Virus record (IMG/VR): IMGVR_UViG_3300006735_000008
Coordinates: 1-31,173 of that record
Source of the DNA: a virus
DNA: 31,173 nucleotides
Direction: 5' to 3' (one strand)
Shown: piece by piece, positions 1 to 31,173 of the stretch
Numbering within the stretch: the first letter of the stretch is position 1
Layout of the letters: each line of letters opens with the position of its first letter
Program-made: the position numbers and the translations under genes
Notes under the pieces: model-generated
What the model saw: only the letters and a program-made list of their open reading frames with translations
What the model was told of the DNA's origin: nothing
The model's database searches: none

Positions 1-123
1 TGAAAAAAAAAACTTATAGCTGACAGTGTAAAACTCATTGGAAATTGTTTCATTGTTTCCGCTTTACTCTCTGTTGGCTGATAATCTTCAATTTCATATC
101 GTCCATATACGTCTTGTGGTCCA
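1..123. repeat. Terminal direct repeat, first copy (circular genome overlap)
   Basis: Bases 1-123 are identical to 31051-31173. The chaperone reading frame runs without interruption from 515 through base 1 into 31050, which shows that the two ends are joined in the real molecule. An exact repeat of this size is what an assembler leaves when a circular or circularly permuted genome is opened at an arbitrary point. A true packaged terminal repeat cannot be excluded, but a cut inside a coding sequence makes that less likely. The unit genome is 31,050 bp. Confidence 0.95.
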
Positions 124-515: not shown

Positions 516-694
516 TTCATTAAATATAAAAAAGGTTCATTTTGTTTTTAAGACAATTTTTTTGTCTTCTAAGCGTGTTTTGTTTCCTTCGTGTCCGATT
601 ACATTCAAACTTTACAATCGTTAATTTCCATTGTAAAAACCGTCAAATTTTAAAGTTTTAAATACTGCGGTTGTAGTTGCTTTTGCTAATATAA
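516..694. promoter_or_regulatory. Intergenic leader between terminase and tail chaperone, with inverted repeats
   Basis: No gene is seen in these 179 bases. They contain a perfect 8-bp inverted repeat, TTTACAAT (611-618) and ATTGTAAA (629-636) around an 11-base loop. A second hairpin (AAGACAA/TTGTCTT, about 560-577) lies close to the chaperone start. Bases 615-633 match 11825-11843 in opposite orientation with one mismatch in 19. The words AAGCGTG and TGTAAAAACC occur in the same order in both regions. This is the likely control region for the late tail genes. I found no exact TAnnTTTG promoter here on the minus strand. Confidence 0.5.
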
Positions 695-1861: not shown

Positions 1862-2213
1862 TTACGTTAATTTTGATTTCACTTATTTGTTCACTGTTAG
1901 ATTTTAAATCAATTTCTTGTCTCTCCACATATCCTCTTTGTTTCCCTTTAGTCTTGAGATAAAATATGATTGACGTTTCTTTGTTGTTTTTTATGTTGTC
2001 TAACAGTTTTGATTCCACATAATCAAATTGTACATTTTGTAATTCATCAACACTGTTCTTAAAATCTTCATCTGTTTTAATCCAATCGTAATATGTGGTA
2101 CGACCTATTCCTGAGATTCTACAAGCTGTTGATACTACACATAAAGTCTTTTCAAGAGCTTCAAGCATAGCCTTCTTTTTTATGTGTTCGGATTTGTTCG
2201 GTTGTTTTGTCAT
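1833..2213 (-). CDS. terS: Terminase small subunit
   Basis: This 126-aa DNA-binding subunit recognises the packaging site and hands DNA to the large subunit. Residues 14-55 form a helix-turn-helix typical of phage small terminases (TACRISGIGRTTYYDWIKTDEDF). A helical oligomerisation segment follows (YVESKLLDNIKNNKETSIIF), then the characteristic FYLKTKGKQRGYVER stretch near 84-98. The start ATG overlaps the stop of the upstream dioxygenase gene by four bases, and the 3' end overlaps the large subunit, the usual small-then-large order. The assignment is based on this motif pattern and the position next to terL. Confidence 0.92.
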   Translation of the reverse strand: MTKQPNKSEHIKKKAMLEALEKTLCVVSTACRISGIGRTTYYDWIKTDEDFKNSVDELQNVQFDYVESKLLDNIKNNKETSIIFYLKTKGKQRGYVERQEIDLKSNSEQISEIKINVIEKTRPTDN

Positions 2214-3025
2214 AATCTTTTGTGTTCTCGTTGTTTTTTCAATTCTCTGATTCGTAGCAATTCGTCATCTACTGTTTCGCATTTCCACATTTGTTCCAGT
2301 GTATAATATACTATTGTGTATCTGTAACCTTTTGCGTGTGTTTTTATTATTGGTGTAACTCCGTGTATAATTTGTTGACCGTCAAATATCAAAAGATAAT
2401 CGTTGTCAATTTCAAATTTAAGATTATATTCAGGACATACCAAACGTCCTCCTGTTATACCGTTCTTAAAACACAGCATATTGCTTAAAACACCTTTAAA
2501 ATTGCCTTTGTCTGTATGATATCTTAGCTGATTATTTTGGTTTATTATTCCTGATGTAAAAGGCGTATCTGTTATTGTCCAATCTTTTTTCACCTTCTCT
2601 TTCACTATTTTGTAATGTTCTTTTAGTATATGTGGAAAGTATTCTTGATAGTAATTTGTTAGAGTTTTGCCGAAGTTTGTTATGATACTGTGTTGTTTGG
2701 GATAATCTCTTGCTGTTGTTACAGTGTTACAATAATCTTGTCTCAGCACTCGTCTTGGCATAAATCCGAACAGCTTTGATTTGCCTAGTTGTTTCATATA
2801 TGATGTACGGTTTGATTTAGCGTATTTCATAGAACGGACCGCCCAGTGTACGTCTTCTGTGTTCTCTTTTATCTTTTTGTATAAAATTATAGGTTGCCCA
2901 TTGTAATTTACAAGAGTATCTTCATTGATTAATCTTGTGGAGTCCTTTTCTGTGGCGAATTTCTTTTTGTATTCTTTTATATCAAGGATTTTATAATCTT
3001 TGTCTGTTAAATTAATTGTATTCAT
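2210..3025 (-). CDS. 2-oxoglutarate/Fe(II)-dependent dioxygenase, TET/JBP-like
   Basis: This 271-aa protein has a double-stranded beta-helix dioxygenase core. The iron ligands are visible as H170-x-D172 (RYHTDKGNFKG) and H221 (IIHGVTPI), with R235 (GYRYTIVYYT) as the likely 2-oxoglutarate anchor. A GGRLVCPEY turn and a DYLLIFDGQ strand lie between them. The HxD, GG.L, LLIFDG, HGV.PI, RY order resembles the TET/JBP family, which oxidises the methyl group of thymine or 5-methylcytosine in DNA. I infer that it hydroxylates a pyrimidine base in the phage DNA, most simply thymine to 5-hydroxymethyluracil, because no cytosine methyltransferase is seen in the window. The roughly 160 N-terminal residues are basic and may contact DNA. 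It overlaps both the amino acid:DNA transferase-like gene upstream and terS downstream. Dioxygenase fold is confident; substrate is inference. Confidence 0.75.
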   Translation of the reverse strand: MNTINLTDKDYKILDIKEYKKKFATEKDSTRLINEDTLVNYNGQPIILYKKIKENTEDVHWAVRSMKYAKSNRTSYMKQLGKSKLFGFMPRRVLRQDYCNTVTTARDYPKQHSIITNFGKTLTNYYQEYFPHILKEHYKIVKEKVKKDWTITDTPFTSGIINQNNQLRYHTDKGNFKGVLSNMLCFKNGITGGRLVCPEYNLKFEIDNDYLLIFDGQQIIHGVTPIIKTHAKGYRYTIVYYTLEQMWKCETVDDELLRIRELKKQREHKRL

Positions 3026-3866
3026 ATAGGTATTTATTTTGAAAGGTTTCCGCGCGAAAATCCCATAACACAGACCAATCTACTCCTTTTATGTGTTTGT
3101 AATGTTCTATCTCTTTGCCTAGTCTATCAATGTAATATCCCACATATCTTTTGCCTAGTCTATATTTTTTGTAAGCGCACAGTGTAGTTTCTATTTGAAA
3201 TATATCTCCTTGATGTTTTGTTTTTATGCTGAGGAATTCTCTCTGTAATGTGTTAATCTCTTTTTTTGTTAGTTTCTTTTTACTGTGGTGATTCATTAGG
3301 TCTGTTCTTCCAATGGCGTAAGCTAAACCGTTGCGACAAGATTTTGCCTGTGATAAATCAAGGGTGTGAGGTTCGCATTTTAGGTTTGTTATTCGGTTCA
3401 AAGTATCTAAGTAGTTAAATAGTGAAAATCTGCCAAAATAAGCAATTTTAAGAGCCTTTTGGTATGTTAGTTGATAGTTGTATTGCTTATCGTCTTTTAT
3501 CCCGTTAAAGAACAAATTTTGTTGGTTATTTTGCACTAACTGTTTATAACTGATGAAGCTCTTTACAAACTGATTATTGCTCTTGATTCTTAATCTGTCT
3601 GTCTGAAATTTTAAATGTGGTCTATTGTTTGTCCACCAATTTTGTAATCTGTGTAAATCTACGTTTTGATAATCAGGGAATTCATTGTACATAAAAAATA
3701 CTGTTGGAGCACAGTAACAGGTCCCGTACAAAAAAGCAATCCAATATCTCTGTTCCATATTTAGCTCAAATCTGTTAGCTATATAATCTAAACAGATGAT
3801 TGATGGGTCCACGTCCCTAGCTTTCATCATATCGTTATGGTATTCAGTGTAGGATTTAATACTCAT
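3012..3866 (-). CDS. Probable amino acid:DNA transferase / thymine pyrophosphorylase-family protein
   Basis: This 284-aa all-helical protein contains an aromatic-rich core with QRYWIAFLYGTCYCAPT (residues 39-55), NEFPDY (61-66), a W-W-N-NRP segment (77-83), KFQTDRLR (86-93) and SFISYKQLVQNNQQ (103-116). From memory this pattern resembles the phage families predicted to swap activated 5-hydroxymethyluracil for an amino acid or polyamine (amino acid:DNA transferases and alpha-glutamyl/putrescinyl-thymine pyrophosphorylases). The context supports that: a TET/JBP-like dioxygenase is encoded directly downstream and a glutamine amidotransferase directly upstream, all with overlapping ends. The role in base hypermodification is an inference. 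A remote DNA glycosylase-like fold is possible. I cannot identify catalytic residues with certainty. Confidence 0.55.
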   Translation of the reverse strand: MSIKSYTEYHNDMMKARDVDPSIICLDYIANRFELNMEQRYWIAFLYGTCYCAPTVFFMYNEFPDYQNVDLHRLQNWWTNNRPHLKFQTDRLRIKSNNQFVKSFISYKQLVQNNQQNLFFNGIKDDKQYNYQLTYQKALKIAYFGRFSLFNYLDTLNRITNLKCEPHTLDLSQAKSCRNGLAYAIGRTDLMNHHSKKKLTKKEINTLQREFLSIKTKHQGDIFQIETTLCAYKKYRLGKRYVGYYIDRLGKEIEHYKHIKGVDWSVLWDFRAETFQNKYLYEYN

Positions 3867-4449
3867 ATCTTTTCAGTGGTTCTAATTCTTCACAGTCCTT
3901 TATTCCTGACCTAGCAAATATGTCTCTTGTGGAAGCTATGTAAGTACAATTATTGTGTTTTGTTTGATAGGCAGGACGGTTTTCATTCCTTATTGCGCAC
4001 AATCTGTTATTTTCAATATATACACAAGCAAAGGAATAGTCCTTGTGATTTAATATGTTATCATCATATAATTTTTGTATCAAAACATATCCGTCATTTT
4101 CGTTGGGTATTTTGACCTCAAACTCACTTTCCATACCGATTGTTGACTTCATAGACAAAACGCCATTAAACGCCAAATTAATTGCCTTAAATTGTAAAGG
4201 CTGGTTGTTATTTAAGTCTTTATAGTCTCCACTTGTAGAATATCGGCAGTGTCCTATTAACAGTGTTGTATCAATGTTTTTAATTTTATTAATCATCTTT
4301 TGTAGGCTATGTGTTTTGTAAGTCTCTATATTTCCCTTGTGTAAATATGATATACCAAAACAGTGTAGTCCTCTTATTTTTGACTGATAAAATATGTCTG
4401 ATAAAAGTTTGTTGTCAATATGTCCAATAGCTCCAATGATAGAACACAT
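3856..4449 (-). CDS. Stand-alone class II glutamine amidotransferase (Ntn hydrolase)
   Basis: This 197-aa protein begins MCSIIGAIG, which exposes the N-terminal nucleophile Cys2 after methionine removal. The glutaminase signature follows in order: GHCRYSTSG (residues 66-74, with R69 contacting glutamine), NNQPL (81-85) and FNGVL (94-98, N95 and G96 forming the oxyanion hole). The domain has the usual size of a GATase2 and there is no synthase domain. It should hydrolyse glutamine and pass ammonia to a partner. The neighbours suggest that the partner belongs to a DNA base modification pathway, not purine or glucosamine synthesis. The start codon overlaps the ParB stop as TAATG and the 3' end overlaps the next gene by 11 bases. 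The catalytic assignment is strong; the acceptor is unknown. Confidence 0.85.
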   Translation of the reverse strand: MCSIIGAIGHIDNKLLSDIFYQSKIRGLHCFGISYLHKGNIETYKTHSLQKMINKIKNIDTTLLIGHCRYSTSGDYKDLNNNQPLQFKAINLAFNGVLSMKSTIGMESEFEVKIPNENDGYVLIQKLYDDNILNHKDYSFACVYIENNRLCAIRNENRPAYQTKHNNCTYIASTRDIFARSGIKDCEELEPLKRYEY

Positions 4450-5060
4450 TACAATCCAACACCGTTACTTTCGTGTTTCACTGATTGTTGTAAGTAAAAA
4501 TCTATACAGTGTTTTATTACTGATGAATTATCGTCTGTTTCAATTTCTTTCGCCACAATATCTAGTTTCGCTAACATCTCTGGGTATTCTTCACTGTCGT
4601 AATACAAAACAATCTGTTTTATTTCGTTTTCAAGATATGTGTCAAGCTCCTCTTTTAAATCGTTTTCTTCAACATCAGGCTCGTCACCAATAGCTAGTTC
4701 CCAATTTTCAAATCCCCACTGTATTAATTCTTCAGTGTCAAACACGTTTGCTAACATATCAAAATCAAACTGTCCAGTGTTTTTATTTAACCTAACATTG
4801 AGCTCACGTTCTCTGTTAATGTCTAAATCAACCTCAACACAGGGGACCTCTTTATATCCCAAATCCTTAGCAACTCTGACTCTTTGGTGCCCTCCTACAA
4901 TAATGTTTTTACGTTCCTTGTTTACGTTCACAATAATTGGGTCTACAAGACCGAAAGTTTGTATTGATGTTTTAAGCTGTTCATATTGATTTTTTTTCAA
5001 CATTCTCGGATTGTAGTCCGCCATTATCAGTGTACTAATTTTTTTATTGATTATTTTCAT
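4449..5060 (-). CDS. ParB/Srx-like nuclease-fold DNA-binding protein
   Basis: This 203-aa protein has the N-terminal ParB/sulfiredoxin domain: YNPRM (residues 16-20), the helix with TFGLVDPIIVN (35-45) and GGHQRVRVAKDLGYKEVPC (56-74), where the GGHQR box binds nucleotide. The C-terminal half is acidic (DEPDVEENDLKEELDTYLEN) and lacks the chromosome-partition HTH module. Phage proteins of this shape are commonly encoded in DNA-modification gene clusters beside methyltransferases or other base-modifying enzymes. Here it leads a tightly coupled run of four genes ending at terS. A role in recognising or processing DNA for modification is inference; plasmid-type partitioning is unlikely because no ParA is present. 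Confidence 0.8.
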   Translation of the reverse strand: MKIINKKISTLIMADYNPRMLKKNQYEQLKTSIQTFGLVDPIIVNVNKERKNIIVGGHQRVRVAKDLGYKEVPCVEVDLDINRERELNVRLNKNTGQFDFDMLANVFDTEELIQWGFENWELAIGDEPDVEENDLKEELDTYLENEIKQIVLYYDSEEYPEMLAKLDIVAKEIETDDNSSVIKHCIDFYLQQSVKHESNGVGL

Positions 5061-9383: not shown

Positions 9384-9824
9384 TTACTTCTTAGATTCGT
9401 ATTGGCTCAAAGCCTCTTTTACATCGTAGCTCCTTGCTCCAATGTACGAATTGTAATTTCCATTGAATATGTGATTATCAATAGCTTTGTGGTCGTGTCT
9501 GTGTTCTCCTCCCTTTTGACCAAATACAGACTCCATCATAAAATCATCATCAGAAAATAATTTTTTTATCTTAGCTAACTGATTGTCATTCCACTTAATG
9601 CTGTATTTAGCAACCTGTGTTGTTGTTTGAAATCTGTTAGGGACCTCTATCATATCTGTGTTAATATCAAAACCGTCTTTGCGTAATTCAAAAACTGTTG
9701 CCGATATTCTTGTGTTGCCTAAATCCTGTATTGCTTCAAGACTTGTGATAGAATTGAATTTATATAAGTATTCAATAAGTCTTGTGTAATGAGTGTATTT
9801 TCTTCTGTTAACTTGAGTTTTCAT
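9384..9824 (-). CDS. Helix-turn-helix domain protein (HTH_39-like)
   Basis: In this 146-aa protein residues about 10-75 read YTRLIEYLYKFNSITSLEAI, DLGNTRISATVFELRKDGFD and VPNRFQTTT, the pattern of the phage HTH_39 winged-helix family. The C-terminal half is polar and unassigned (GGEHRHDHKAIDNHIFN). The frame is open to 9854, but the only earlier start is a TTG buried in stem III of hammerhead 2. ATG 9822-9824, 25 bases after the predicted cleavage site, is the real start. Probable transcription or replication regulator. Confidence 0.75.
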   Translation of the reverse strand: MKTQVNRRKYTHYTRLIEYLYKFNSITSLEAIQDLGNTRISATVFELRKDGFDINTDMIEVPNRFQTTTQVAKYSIKWNDNQLAKIKKLFSDDDFMMESVFGQKGGEHRHDHKAIDNHIFNGNYNSYIGARSYDVKEALSQYESKK

Positions 9825-9843
9825 ATAATTTATTTGTTGATTA

Positions 9844-9899
9844 ATAACAGACAAGGGACCTTGTCCCCTGTTTCGTCCTTATGGACTCGTCAGTGTTAT
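9844..9899 (-). ncRNA. Hammerhead ribozyme 2 (type I)
   Basis: Minus-strand elements in order: stem I 5' ATAACA (9899-9894), CTGACGA (9893-9887), stem II GTCC-ATAA-GGAC (9886-9875), GAAA (9874-9871), stem III CAGGGGA-CAAGG-TCCCTTG (9870-9852, one G-U pair), T (9851), cleavable C (9850), and stem I 3' TGTTAT (9849-9844), fully complementary to the 5' strand. Core position 7 is C, which the CUGANGA consensus allows. The TAA stop of the upstream gene (9898-9896) is inside stem I. Confidence 0.92.
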
Positions 9900-10281: not shown

Positions 10282-10357
10282 GTAACAGACCGCCCACTTA
10301 AAATATGACTTATTAACCTGTGGACGGTTTCGCCTATAAAAGGCTCATCAGTGTTAC
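10282..10357 (-). ncRNA. Hammerhead ribozyme 3 (type I, long stem III loop)
   Basis: Minus-strand elements: stem I 5' GTAACA (10357-10352), CTGATGA (10351-10345), stem II GCCT-TTTAT-AGGC (10344-10332), GAAA (10331-10328), stem III CCGTCCAC/GTGGGCGG (10327-10320 and 10297-10290, eight pairs with one G-U) closed by a 22-base A/T-rich loop. Then come T (10289), cleavable C (10288) and stem I 3' TGTTAC (10287-10282), which pairs perfectly. The ArdC stop codon TAA (10356-10354) is within stem I. Confidence 0.92.
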
Positions 10358-11349
10358 TTATTCAATATAAATTCAACCGCTTTCTGTGATTGTTGAGACG
10401 CAAAAAACACTTCTTTTTCATTATCCTTCTTTTTTAAATGTGTTATCCAACCGTTAATGTACGCCTGTGAATTTGTCATATCGTCTTTTGGCTCTAAACC
10501 TAAAACACCACATAAAAACAACGAACCTAATTCAGCAACAAGCTCCTCTTTGGCATACTCCTGTTTTTTCTTTGAAGGAGAATTTACAGTGGCTTTCATT
10601 AAAGATTCTCTGTTTAGTATTGATTCGTGTCCTGTACTGTGTATCATTTCGTGAAACAGTGTTTTATAGTAATCGTCAGACCTTCCTGTTTTATCAGTAA
10701 AATTTTCTTTGTTAGGCATCTGAATATGGTGGCTGTTTACTTTGTAAAACGCTCCTGTTCCACCGTGTTTCAGTGTAGGTTTTTTAGGCATATTTGCGTA
10801 AACCGATTCTGCGTCAGTGATAGGTTCAAAAATTGTATCTTTTACAGCTTCATCTTTAATCTCTTGTGGTAAATAATCTATTCCCTCTGTTTGAGACAAA
10901 TTATATACAGTGTAATATCTCTGAGACCATACAGCATTAACACCTTTAGTCTTTTTGTTTACACCTGATGGCAAAGATTTTTCATTGGGGTACCACTTGT
11001 CTTTGTAGAAATAAGAACACAAGGAATATATGACAGGAAATCCTTCTGCGTCTTCGTTCAGTGTACCACCAATCTCTTTGATTTTTTTATATGTGATAAA
11101 CTCAGGAGTGTTAAAATTGTTTGTCCACATAGCTATCTGCATTAACCAATAGTTAATTCCTGTGTAAATCTTTTTAGAATCATAACTAATAGCGGGGATA
11201 TCAGGTGACATTCCGTGTTTTGTACTCCAAGGACGAACCCAATTCAAGCCTTCCTTCTCCAATCCTTTCACAATATTGTCTGTTATTATTTCGTGAATTG
11301 ATTTACCTGTTTTTTTTCTTGGTGTCCATTTAAATTTTTTAGTTTTCAT
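10354..11349 (-). CDS. ArdC-like antirestriction protein (ssDNA-binding N-domain plus zincin)
   Basis: This 331-aa protein has the two-part ArdC layout. The N-terminal domain (about 15-155: IHEIITDNIVKGLEKEGLNWVRPW, YTGINYWLMQIA, FITYKKIKEIGG, YTVYNLSQTEG) matches the ssDNA-binding half. The C-terminal metalloprotease-like domain carries HEMIHSTGH (residues 233-241, the zinc-binding HExxH) and YAKEELVAELGS (265-276, third ligand). ArdC-type proteins shield entering DNA from type I/II restriction. It is flanked by hammerheads 4 and 3. Its leader AAAACTTAATTTAACACAG is the best match to the 5' end of the plus-strand short RNA at 11748-11816. Confidence 0.85.
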   Translation of the reverse strand: MKTKKFKWTPRKKTGKSIHEIITDNIVKGLEKEGLNWVRPWSTKHGMSPDIPAISYDSKKIYTGINYWLMQIAMWTNNFNTPEFITYKKIKEIGGTLNEDAEGFPVIYSLCSYFYKDKWYPNEKSLPSGVNKKTKGVNAVWSQRYYTVYNLSQTEGIDYLPQEIKDEAVKDTIFEPITDAESVYANMPKKPTLKHGGTGAFYKVNSHHIQMPNKENFTDKTGRSDDYYKTLFHEMIHSTGHESILNRESLMKATVNSPSKKKQEYAKEELVAELGSLFLCGVLGLEPKDDMTNSQAYINGWITHLKKKDNEKEVFFASQQSQKAVEFILNK

Positions 11350-11370: not shown

Positions 11371-11428
11371 ATTACTGACCGTCACAAGGACGGTTTCGCC
11401 ACCTTTCAGTGTTGCTCATCAGAGTAAT
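11371..11428 (-). ncRNA. Hammerhead ribozyme 4 (type I, bulged stem II)
   Basis: Minus-strand elements: stem I 5' ATTACT (11428-11423), CTGATGA (11422-11416), and stem II from 11415 to 11398, which pairs as GC-CAC/GTG-GC with an AA bulge and loop TGAAAG. GAAA (11397-11394) follows, then stem III CCGTC-CTTGT-GACGG (11393-11379), T (11378), cleavable C (11377) and stem I 3' AGTAAT (11376-11371), perfectly paired. The core is intact; the bulged stem II makes this the least regular of the four. The upstream stop codon touches stem I at 11428. Confidence 0.85.
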
Positions 11429-11595
11429 TAAATTAAATCTATTGCTGATTCACCTGTTATGTCCCCGTTTTTGGTAATTTCATAATTTGGGTCCATACCT
11501 GATATTTTGATGTCGTCAATTAAATCTTCTATTGTTGTAAATTCTTTTGTGTAATATACACAGTCTAAAGAGTAAAAGTTTTCAGTGTTTTTCAT
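11428..11595 (-). CDS. Small protein, 55 aa, first gene of ribozyme operon
   Basis: The frame from ATG 11593-11595 to TAA 11428-11430 encodes MKNTENFYSLDCVYYTKEFT and ends TGESAIDLI. I do not recognise it; it looks like a compact alpha/beta protein with an acidic helix (TIEDLIDDIKISGMD). Support comes from position: it follows a TACCTTTG promoter element at 11632-11639, and its stop codon abuts hammerhead 4 exactly as the other three hammerheads abut upstream stops. Too short for common ORF thresholds. Confidence 0.65.
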   Translation of the reverse strand: MKNTENFYSLDCVYYTKEFTTIEDLIDDIKISGMDPNYEITKNGDITGESAIDLI

Positions 11596-11631: not shown

Positions 11632-11639
11632 CAAAGGTA
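11632..11639 (-). promoter_or_regulatory. Candidate -7 element TACCTTTG for the ribozyme operon
   Basis: The minus strand reads TACCTTTG, an exact TAnnTTTG box of Bacteroidetes housekeeping promoters, about 36 bases before the 55-aa gene. A TTG at the -33 position is not evident. The upstream side is A/T-tract DNA (11642-11675) that may substitute as an UP-like element. Confidence 0.5.
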
Positions 11640-11641
11640 CG

Positions 11642-11675
11642 TAAAAAAATTTTAATAAACCTAAAAAAATTTTAA
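11642..11675. repeat. A-tract/T-tract direct repeat, 14 bp x 2
   Basis: TAAAAAAATTTTAA occurs at 11642-11655 and again at 11662-11675, a 20-bp period close to two helical turns. Phased A-tracts bend or destabilise DNA. The repeat lies between the minus-strand promoter and the plus-strand promoter, so an UP element or a duplex-unwinding element of an origin are both possible. I see no iterons to favour the origin. Confidence 0.6.
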
Positions 11676-11713
11676 CTTTTTTTATCTACCACATATAGGA
11701 AATTAACAATGAT

Positions 11714-11743
11714 TTGCTGTGTAAATAATTTTTTTTATATTTG
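11714..11743 (+). promoter_or_regulatory. Plus-strand Bacteroidetes-type promoter
   Basis: TTG at 11714-11716, then exactly 19 bases, then TATATTTG at 11736-11743: a full match to the TTG-N19-TAnnTTTG consensus of Flavobacteriia housekeeping sigma factor. It is the best promoter in the window and points against all the protein genes. About 33 bases after the box the transcript reaches a strong terminator, so its product is a short RNA. Confidence 0.8.
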
Positions 11744-11747
11744 TGTA

Positions 11748-11816
11748 AACTGTGTAAGTTTAAGTTTTCTATGTGAAAGAGTCGTTGCCAATTCGGTTTG
11801 ACGGCTCTTTTTTTTT
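11748..11816 (+). ncRNA. Plus-strand short RNA, about 65-70 nt
   Basis: The RNA is defined by the promoter ending at 11743 and the terminator ending at 11816. No open frame is present. Its 5' end, CTGTGTAAGTTTAAGTTTT (11750-11768), is complementary to the leader of the ArdC gene (AAAACTTAATTTAACACAG, about 11353-11371 minus): 9 pairs, then a mismatch, a G-U and one pair, another mismatch, then 6 pairs. It also partly matches the leaders after hammerheads 1 and 3 through ACACAG and AACTTAA blocks. That suggests a trans-acting regulator of translation start. The exact start site is estimated. Confidence 0.7.
11776..11816 (+). terminator. Rho-independent terminator of the short RNA
   Basis: AAAGAGTCGT (11776-11785) pairs with ACGGCTCTTT (11801-11810) over ten pairs with one G-U. 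The loop is 15 bases, and the T run 11808-11816 (nine T) follows directly. It is strong on the plus strand. On the minus strand the stem is followed by only three T, so lysis-operon messages may pass. Confidence 0.88.
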
Positions 11817-11950
11817 AAATCTACCAATGGAAATTGACGATTGAAGCGTGTGTCACCTTCTCGTACAACTAAGGGTGTAAAAACCTCTTAAATCGCAAAA
11901 AAAGTGGCTTAAAATTGAAATTGTATATTTAGATAATCTATGAAATTTGC
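11817..11950. promoter_or_regulatory. Intergenic region with elements shared with 570-642
   Basis: No gene is seen. CAATGGAAATTGACGATTG (11825-11843) matches 615-633 in opposite orientation with one mismatch. AAGCGTG (11844-11850) and TGTAAAAACC (about 11877-11886) also occur near 577 and 632 in the same order. CTTAAATCGCAA and GCTTAAAATTG follow (about 11887-11917), words also present in the 9263-9383 and 19111-19204 control regions. I interpret it as a composite regulatory region after the lysis operon. Confidence 0.45.
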
Positions 11951-12820
11951 CTAGATTAAGGCTCTGGCTGTGGTATTCACAATAGTTTTGTTTTTTTCTT
12001 TGTATATATCAGCAACCATTTCAAAACAGCCTAAAGGCTTTGGAGGACGTCCACGCTCTATGTGGTAATCCATATATCCGTCACCATATTCTTCTTTGTA
12101 GGTCCCTGCTCTTAAATGAAGAATGTTTTTCAGTTCTACATTGTTACGAACGTTAAGCGTTTCTACTGTGTAATACATCTGATATAATTCGTGTACGTGT
12201 CCTAGAACAAAACAGTCCGCTCCACTGACGCTTGTCATAATACGATTATTTTGTATTGTTCCTTTTGTCACTGGTCCTCCTCCTCCTGAGCCGTGAAAAT
12301 ACTTTATTTTATATGTGTAACCAAAATCTCCTTTTGTGTAATTATATTTTAAAACAAACCAACCTCCATAACCTCCTGTGTATATTTTAGATTGATTTGT
12401 GTAATTAAATAAATCTACAAAACGCTGTAATGGGTCAGTTTCTTGATGAGATAATATGCTTGTTTCGTGGTTACCATATCCTATCACTGTCAAAACATCT
12501 TTATAGGGAGACCACCAATCAACAGCGTCACTGATAACAGCGTCAAGATAATTTTCTTTATTGTGTTCAGGTCTGATATTGTTTTTACGTTTTCTTGGGT
12601 CGTATTTTCCTTGCATAAGACAGAAAAAATCACCATTAATAAACACAGGTATTTTATTTGCAAGTGCGTAATCCATATGTTTTTTTAACAGAGACCTATC
12701 ACAATGAGGATTATCCCAGTGTACATCAGACATTATTAGTATTTTGTGTTGGTTTAAATCTTTGTAATCAAAGTCAAACTCTAATCTGTGTACGTTTCTG
12801 TTTAATTCTTGTAATTTCAT
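11951..12820 (-). CDS. Calcineurin-like metallophosphoesterase
   Basis: This 289-aa protein has the full dimetal phosphoesterase motif set in order: SDVHWD (31-36), NGDFF (62-66), GNHE (116-119), HGSGGG (176-181) and GHVH (207-210). Together these bind two metal ions and hydrolyse phosphodiesters or phosphomonoesters. Phage relatives include nucleases and nucleotide phosphatases; the substrate cannot be told from sequence. Speculatively it might process 2',3'-cyclic phosphate or 5' RNA ends created by the ribozymes downstream. The start overlaps the upstream membrane-protein stop as ATGA, and the gene closes the lysis operon before the control region. Confidence 0.88.
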   Translation of the reverse strand: MKLQELNRNVHRLEFDFDYKDLNQHKILIMSDVHWDNPHCDRSLLKKHMDYALANKIPVFINGDFFCLMQGKYDPRKRKNNIRPEHNKENYLDAVISDAVDWWSPYKDVLTVIGYGNHETSILSHQETDPLQRFVDLFNYTNQSKIYTGGYGGWFVLKYNYTKGDFGYTYKIKYFHGSGGGGPVTKGTIQNNRIMTSVSGADCFVLGHVHELYQMYYTVETLNVRNNVELKNILHLRAGTYKEEYGDGYMDYHIERGRPPKPLGCFEMVADIYKEKNKTIVNTTARALI

Positions 12821-13062
12821 TTTTTACAGCATTTGTTATTATTTTCAAAAAAAGATAAACACAGAGGCAATACGCCAATAGCACATAAAGTAACTATCTG
12901 CCAACTAATATCTTCATTGTTAATCTGAGAAACGGCAGACAACACAATAAGTCCCCCCAAGGACCTCTTGGCTGACCACCGTTTTAAATCTCCTTTTGTC
13001 TTAAAAATCTCTGTTAAATTAATACCTGATAACAGGTCAAGAATTTTTTTATTTTTCATCAT
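12817..13062 (-). CDS. Small membrane protein of the lysis cassette
   Basis: This 81-aa protein has two likely transmembrane helices (about 34-48, SLGGLIVLSAVSQIN; and 54-72, WQIVTLCAIGVLPLCLSFF), a basic N-terminal part and a CCKK tail. It is encoded directly after a holin-like protein and close to the peptidase, so a second holin, antiholin or membrane-disruption role is plausible. Starts and stops overlap both neighbours. No family is recognised. Confidence 0.65.
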   Translation of the reverse strand: MMKNKKILDLLSGINLTEIFKTKGDLKRWSAKRSLGGLIVLSAVSQINNEDISWQIVTLCAIGVLPLCLSFFENNNKCCKK

Positions 13063-19270: not shown

Positions 19271-19855
19271 TTACACTGGGTCTATTGCAGTAGCGGATAT
19301 TGATAAATTTGTGAGATTGTCAAAAGGATATCCAGCTGTTAAGACTCCTGATGTTTGAGCTCCCATAAAAAACGGAATATCTTCCTCACCTGTTAAGGTC
19401 AGTGTAAATCCTGCCATATCTCCTCTTGCTGTTCCCGTTCCAATAGTACCGCCTGATATCATACAACCGTTTTTAAAGCCTATAAACCAAGTTTTATCAT
19501 TGTTGTCTAACACTATTGCGATAACTCTTTGGTCACCAATTTTTTTGAAAGCCTCAACCGATTTTACGTCAAGCATATTAAATACTAACTCAGCTGATTG
19601 TTGATAGAACGCTTTTGCTCCTGCTGTTGCGTCTCCGTTAGCCACTGTAACAGTTAAGCTAGAGGACGAAGCTCTCAATTTAAATTCAAAACACGAAGTG
19701 CCTGAAGGCGCGTCATCTATTTGAAAGTCGTCAGTGGTATCAAAAGTGTAGTCCTTCCAAGCGTCATATTCCCAAGGAATCAGAAACAATTTTTGTATTC
19801 CACCAATGCTATTTTGACAAGGGACATTCCTCCCTGTTGTTAATGTACAAGCCAT
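19271..19855 (-). CDS. Probable major tail tube protein
   Basis: This 194-aa protein is beta-rich (LTVTVANGDATAG, QRVIAIVLDNNDKTWFIGF, GFTLTLTGEEDIPFFMG). It starts MACTLTTGRNVPCQNSIGGI, which I associate with tail tube-like proteins of Bacteroidetes siphophages. No enzyme motif is present. It is encoded between two terminators right after the major capsid gene, an arrangement suited to an abundant virion protein with separately tuned expression. Head decoration protein is an alternative. Confidence 0.62.
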   Translation of the reverse strand: MACTLTTGRNVPCQNSIGGIQKLFLIPWEYDAWKDYTFDTTDDFQIDDAPSGTSCFEFKLRASSSSLTVTVANGDATAGAKAFYQQSAELVFNMLDVKSVEAFKKIGDQRVIAIVLDNNDKTWFIGFKNGCMISGGTIGTGTARGDMAGFTLTLTGEEDIPFFMGAQTSGVLTAGYPFDNLTNLSISATAIDPV

Positions 19856-31017: not shown

Positions 31018-31173
31018 CTGTTGGTATCTTGTAAAAGTCTGTCGCCTAAATGAAAAAAAAAACTTATAGCTGACAGTGTAAAACTCATTGGAAATTGTTT
31101 CATTGTTTCCGCTTTACTCTCTGTTGGCTGATAATCTTCAATTTCATATCGTCCATATACGTCTTGTGGTCCA
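30966..31173 (-). CDS. Tail assembly chaperone, frame-0 product (G-like), 3' part
   Basis: This is the continuation of the gene that starts at 515; bases 31051-31173 repeat 1-123. From the junction the frame reads FTLSAISFFFHLGDRLLQ, then DTNSCSKTTQKKKTKTTVLK, and stops at TAG 30966-30968. The last residues are low-complexity Lys/Thr, which fits a short read-on after a frameshift site and not a folded domain. The unslipped product of 199 aa should be the major form. Confidence 0.75.
   Translation of the reverse strand, partial: GPQDVYGRYEIEDYQPTESKAETMKQFPMSFTLSAISFFFHLGDRLLQDTNSCSKTTQKKKTKTTVLK
30993..30999 (-). promoter_or_regulatory. -1 programmed frameshift site A AAA AAG
   Basis: In the chaperone frame the codons read CAA AAA AAG, so the canonical heptamer A AAA AAG is in phase, 24 bases before the TAG at 30966-30968. 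A -1 slip enters the open T-like frame. A second possible slip run is the T10 tract corresponding to plus-strand A10 at 31053-31062, which leads into the same frame. Confidence 0.8.
31051..31173. repeat. Terminal direct repeat, second copy
   Basis: Identical to bases 1-123 over all 123 positions; see the first copy. It should be removed once when the circular genome is built, leaving 31,050 bp. Confidence 0.95.

Follow-up and report, generated by a model that had tools for sequence, protein, structure and literature searches.

A predicted small RNA gene in head-on orientation at the late/early seam of a probably flavobacterial phage

Background

What might a promoter serve that points against all the genes of a phage and leads, after a few dozen bases, to a strong terminator with no gene in between? 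Such an arrangement is found in the DNA analysed here (henceforth the window), namely the 31,173 nucleotides of the IMG/VR virus record IMGVR_UViG_3300006735_000008. The best single reading of the unit is a dedicated small RNA gene with a predicted transcript.

The record is classed as linear and carries an exact 123-base direct terminal repeat (window 1-123 and 31051-31173); the genome is therefore probably complete, with 31,050 bases. The best named relative of its portal protein is the portal of Nonlabens phage P12024S (~30% identity), and this relationship, along with the promoter type of the unit, points to a host that is probably flavobacterial. A portal query against bacterial genomes returned no match, and thus identified neither a prophage nor the host itself.

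Results and discussion

Setting of the unit at the late/early seam

All homology-supported genes lie on the minus strand, opposite to the RNA unit, in agreement with the preliminary description of this DNA. The late block, which runs in the minus direction, finishes with p81 (12817..13062, minus), a small conserved late protein that serves as a syntenic marker of the slot, and then with the last late gene, a metallophosphoesterase (11951..12820, minus; 'DNA repair exonuclease', PHROG 7339) that is convergent with the RNA. This is followed by a gap of 355 bases, the largest true intergenic gap of the window, beyond which the first early gene (11428..11595, minus) encodes a protein of 55 residues belonging to no known family. 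The unit is located within this late/early gap, where it faces the phosphoesterase gene head-on at its 3' end and is divergent to the early promoter (11639, minus). The latter shows a -7 box, TACCTTTG (11632..11639, minus), with A-tract repeats behind it at 11639-11675; no TTG was detected around -33. The repeats comprise ACSTAAAAAAATTTTAA twice, at a spacing of exactly 20 bases, and resemble A-tract or UP-elements. The GC skew has no turning point at the RNA locus, and accordingly offers no support for a replication origin there.

A further motif, CAATGGAAATTRACGATTG, occurs at 11825-11843 (plus) and 633-615 (minus), with a partial copy at 11698-11712 (plus). It is confined to the two long non-coding gaps of the genome, being absent elsewhere in the window and in the portal-related loci L002-L081, and is possibly an operator or the relic of a small gene start. 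The stretch 540-631 (minus) contains an apparent small gene split by a frame change, with MEINDCKV in one frame and VIGHEGNKTRLEDKKIVLKTK in another; no homologue of this broken gene was recovered among the fetched loci. Elsewhere in the genome, the region 2210-5060 (minus) encodes a queuine tRNA-ribosyltransferase-like protein near glutamine-amidotransferase-like and ParB-like/methyltransferase genes. These might possibly specify a 7-deazaguanine DNA modification and, along with an ArdC-like gene (10354-11349), constitute an anti-restriction set.

Promoter, RNA body and terminator

The unit begins with a Bacteroidota-type promoter (11713..11743, plus), in which TTTG (11713-11716) is separated by 19 nt from TATATTTG (11736-11743). 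This corresponds to the consensus of the Bacteroidota primary-sigma promoter, with TTTG near -33 and TAnnTTTG at -7 (PMC7366714, PMC9723704). Its position and sequence (11713/11714-11743, TTTG-N19-TATATTTG) are as previously described, but its designation as the best promoter was an overstatement: the pattern TTG-N17-21-TANNTTTG is encountered 10 times in the window, mostly within genes, against a mean of 6.4 in shuffled sequences. By itself the promoter pattern is unremarkable, and it is common in the T-rich plus strand. With the -7 box placed at -12 to -5, following the spacing given in PMC9723704, the predicted start lies at about 11748.

The predicted RNA (11748..11816, plus) measures 66-69 nt, its 5' end being set by the -7 box and its 3' end falling within the T run; the predicted start and the end of the T run delimit 69 nt. 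It consists of a 5' hairpin (11746..11762, plus; UAAACU-GUGUA-AGUUUA, with two pairs fewer if the start is 11748), a short single-stranded U-rich linker and a terminator hairpin. The intrinsic terminator (11775..11816, plus) combines a stem at 11775-11811 with a T run at 11808-11816. At -16.9 kcal/mol, its minimum free energy hairpin is the top hairpin-plus-T-run of the window, which bears out the claim of a strong terminator. The stem had been described as ten pairs followed by T9; the T run stands, but the stem actually contains 12 outer and 3 inner pairs. A simple terminator scan of the window did not include 11775-11811 among its calls, probably owing to this interrupted stem. The second-ranked hairpin-plus-T-run (-16.7 kcal/mol, 19246-19214) is on the gene strand. 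It is the only other strong terminator and directly follows the gene at 19271-19855; in many relatives a terminator occupies a comparable position ahead of the portal gene.

No complete reading frame is present inside 11746-11816, as had been stated, and a micropeptide reading is thereby excluded. The unit thus displays several features of a stand-alone small RNA gene: a promoter of its own with the -33 and -7 elements given above, an intrinsic terminator of its own and no translated frame.

Joint occurrence and strand-specific folding

One objection to a functional reading is the chance pairing of a promoter-like string with a stray terminator. Besides the abundance of the promoter pattern in the T-rich strand, this is suggested by the terminator itself, as AAAGAGnCG...CGnCTCTTT hairpins are a generic terminator type found in 12 unrelated contigs. 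However, the real window contains a single promoter that has a terminator at or below -12 kcal/mol within the next 160 nt, against a mean of 0.017 in 60 whole-window dinucleotide shuffles (one pair across all 60), and this is before an intergenic site is required. As the slot and orientation are also conserved (see below), we consider coincidence highly improbable.

Folding provides a further line of evidence. When compared with 200 shuffles, the plus strand of 11746-11816 forms two hairpins with -20.9 kcal/mol (z -4.53), a value reached by none of the shuffles, whereas the minus strand folds poorly (-9.4 kcal/mol, z -1.9). This difference arises because U-G and G-U pairs of the stem turn into A-C and C-A on the other strand. 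The predicted transcribed strand hence folds more stably than shuffled versions of itself, and the strand asymmetry is independent support that the unit is real. A bidirectional terminator serving the late operon was also considered, and is ruled out by the lack of a U tract and the poor fold on the minus strand, which make the terminator one-sided.

The same slot in related phages

To place the unit in context we used a comparison set of 80 related contigs, whose portal proteins show 48-66% identity over the best segment. In 12 of these (L022, L042, L047, L050, L053, L056, L065, L066, L069, L077, L076 and L078) the same gap contains an opposite-strand operon of small genes, represented in L056 by its last gene only. 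In most cases the last gene encodes a winged-helix HTH_39 protein (Pfam match in L066; phmmer homologues), the exceptions being L042 and L069, which end with another gene. The p81-phosphoesterase neighbours are common to the window, L047 and L056. Where the operon promoter lies within the contig it has the same TATATTTG box, and 15 bases, TATATTTGTGTAAAC, are common to the promoters of the window and L050. A strong opposite-strand terminator is present in ten contigs (L009, where the contig ends there, L022, L042, L047, L050, L053, L056, L065, L066 and L069), its stem lying 1-7 bases beyond the phosphoesterase stop codon. The operon of L066, L050, L042 and others therefore resembles the unit of the window in slot, orientation, promoter box and a terminator facing the phosphoesterase 3' end. 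It differs in containing 3-8 small genes, usually with HTH_39 last, and in having another terminator hairpin, positioned 1-7 bases from the stop codon.

By contrast, nine contigs (L005, L008, L010, L017, L018, L030, L032, L043 and L046) possess no opposite-strand unit, and their early genes, including HTH_39 where found, are in the main direction. The window is intermediate: its HTH_39 gene (9384..9854, minus), with 47-50% identity to the HTH_39 proteins of L076 and L078, is in the main direction, yet it has an opposite-strand promoter and terminator without a gene between them.

This distribution raises the alternative that the unit is the emptied shell of such an operon, whose ancestral opposite-strand small genes disappeared or were relocated to the main direction, leaving a promoter, a terminator and a functionless RNA. 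That many relatives have a protein-coding opposite-strand operon in the slot makes this a serious rival, even though we regard it as unlikely. The unit occupies the exact syntenic slot of the operon in twelve relatives, has the same promoter box with the 15 bases identical to those of L050, and the HTH_39 gene that ends the operon of the relatives sits in the main-direction early operon of the window. On the other hand, the promoter similarity to the operon beyond the consensus is not above background, so that promoter homology was rejected as an argument, and the operon terminators form hairpins of a different kind. Moreover, the promoter and the strongest terminator of the window are both intact, the 5' hairpin fits the predicted start, and other phages also have bare units, with a selected structure on the antisense strand, as described below.

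In a further set of loci downstream of p81 (L176-L255, e.g. L183, L184, L200, L223 and L244), one or a few opposite-strand genes are frequent at the end of the late block, their ORFs having been called mechanically. Across many phages this site resembles an exchange slot.

Gene-less counterparts

Scanning with p81 brought up two pairs of contigs, L186/L188 and L190/L204, with the unit identical within each pair. These contain p81 and a phosphoesterase (45-48% identity to that of L066) followed by a gene-less antisense unit, in which TATATTTG precedes a 5' hairpin (CAGAT...ATCTG) that a linker connects to a terminator-like hairpin. The stem shows compensatory changes from L186 to L204 (GAGAGC...GCTCTC versus GAGAGG...CCTCTC), and in both units the antisense strand gives the more stable fold (-32.8 and -30.7 kcal/mol; z -5.3 and -4.8), the sense strand reaching -25.0 and -20.7 kcal/mol. 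Past the antisense unit these contigs have a sense hairpin with T9, at which transcription of the phosphoesterase would stop only once the entire complement of the RNA had been copied; an overlap of the two transcripts is thus likely in L186.

The L186/L188 and L190/L204 units share with that of the window the slot after p81-phosphoesterase, the TATATTTG box, the succession of 5' hairpin, linker and terminator-like hairpin, and the absence of a gene. They differ in an RNA body without sequence similarity, a poor U tract and an unclear -33 element; furthermore, the hairpin of L186 is 6 bases from the phosphoesterase stop codon, whereas the RNA of the window is 135 bases away. The likeness is one of place and build, and we make no claim of homology.

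No Rfam family matched the RNA of the window above its gathering cut-off; exact and degenerate DNA scans of IMG/VR with the RNA or the promoter gave either zero matches or generic terminators only; blastn of the region against phage records gave no match; and the phosphoesterase or ArdC alone as queries retrieved no relatives. No close relative of the RNA was retrieved from the collections searched, from which records very near the window may be missing, so that this result does not argue against the existence of close relatives; compensatory changes were confined to the comparison of L186 with L204. Conservation around 11700-11820 was found for slot, orientation and gene-less layout, but not as a sequence homologue of the RNA.

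The preliminary description had proposed a dedicated small RNA as the simplest reading, and this is partly supported. In favour of it are the completeness of the unit, its occurrence beyond chance, its strand-specific fold and the gene-less counterparts, with the emptied operon as the main rival. Between these two, the bare two-hairpin units in the slot and the plus-strand folding bias of the window speak for a real small RNA.

Antisense terminator-like hairpins directly after the phosphoesterase stop codon were also observed in L087 (4890-4915), L088, L089, L112, L090 (4837-4867) and L101, all on the minus strand. They have a common AC-AACG-GT loop; their candidate promoter is weak, has no -33 element and may be due to chance.

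Proposed mode of action

The best explanation, and one that holds about half of our confidence, is a phage small RNA gene, whose most likely mechanism would be an antisense action on the 3' end of late mRNA comparable to that of the OOP and Sar RNAs. A host-type promoter at the late/early seam would give rise to an untranslated RNA of 66-69 nt, oriented opposite to all genes and probably transcribed early, because the promoter is of the host type. With less certainty, the RNA might then act like lambda OOP or P22 Sar. Late transcripts that pass the phosphoesterase stop codon would contain its full complement, and pairing could cause the late mRNA to be trimmed or destabilised at its 3' end, or restrain late read-through into the early operon. 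The geometry is that of an antisense RNA: the unit opposes the main operon and has both a promoter and a terminator of its own, while its complement flanks the phosphoesterase gene on the 3' side and there is no coding overlap. The antisense step would require late mRNA to continue beyond the phosphoesterase stop codon by 135 bases or more; a search of the window found no late terminator to mark how far it runs.

Lambda OOP is a short RNA with its own promoter and terminator that is directed against the main operon in a control region and overlaps the 3' end of the cII coding sequence. The RNA of the window is of similar length, has its own promoter and terminator and likewise opposes the main operon; it differs in being wholly intergenic, 135 bases from the stop codon, unrelated in sequence and with a pairing that is only proposed. 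P22 Sar is a short antisense RNA, also with its own promoter and terminator, that pairs with the translation start of ant. It is similar in these respects and in its location inside a phage operon region, but the RNA of the window faces a 3' end. Sar is cited in PMC12197685, and intergenic small RNAs of Bacteroidota hosts are represented by GibS (PMC7366714) and Rfp18 (PMC9723704). The latter two share the promoter type and the stand-alone promoter-terminator architecture, but are host-encoded and show no sequence relation. Among the open-licence papers searched, none dealt with a phage-encoded small RNA in Bacteroidetes.

The unit could also function in other ways. Its RNA might be trans-acting, with the linker targeting host or other phage mRNAs, as the stand-alone promoter and terminator and the single-stranded U-rich linker between 5' and 3' hairpins would permit. 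We consider this quite unlikely, since the best predicted pairing between the linker and translation starts of the phage, the targets covered here, is equalled by 84 of 200 shuffles. Alternatively, head-on transcription itself rather than the RNA might bar late polymerases from the early promoter region, the terminator keeping transcription short. Such an interference or insulator role is consistent with the head-on geometry at the seam, the divergence from the early promoter and the one-sided terminator, but would need neither a 5' hairpin nor a conserved RNA fold of the kind seen in L186/L204, and appears very unlikely.

A more general and rather doubtful proposal is that the late/early seam in a broad group of Bacteroidota phages might be a head-on transcription slot with alternating products, an operon for regulatory proteins in some phages and a bare two-hairpin RNA in others, with the bare RNA doing the job alone and replacing a protein regulator of the early-to-late programme. 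For the window, the unit has the appearance of a genuine regulatory RNA, if not a revolutionary one. It is a clean, testable candidate, the slot offers a natural comparison of protein operon, bare RNA and nothing, and it could reveal how such phages separate late and early transcription.

A distinct structured RNA in other contigs

A separate structured RNA was observed in L125 (7715-7822), L146 (4595-4702), L153 (3326-3432) and L154 (4828-4934), all on the plus strand. A Bacteroidota promoter of its own precedes two hairpins, whose loops are complementary, covary and could form a kissing interaction, and a terminator follows. Across the four sequences 11 of 27 pairs are changed on both sides and 95% of cells pair; the covariation score was reached by 0 of 500 shuffles, with the structure drawn from the same four sequences. 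No Rfam family matches this RNA. The RNA of the window was considered as a member and ruled out, as it gave no covariance-model match at default settings and its loops are not complementary; the model scored the window at 15.3 bits (E 0.085 over 4.5 kb), ranked behind an unrelated stretch. In L087, L112 and L153 the kissing-loop RNA is just upstream of replication-initiator genes, while in L146 an HNH endonuclease gene intervenes. Diverged forms, recognised by eye and without a model match, are probably present in L087 (2827-2920, minus), L088 and L112.
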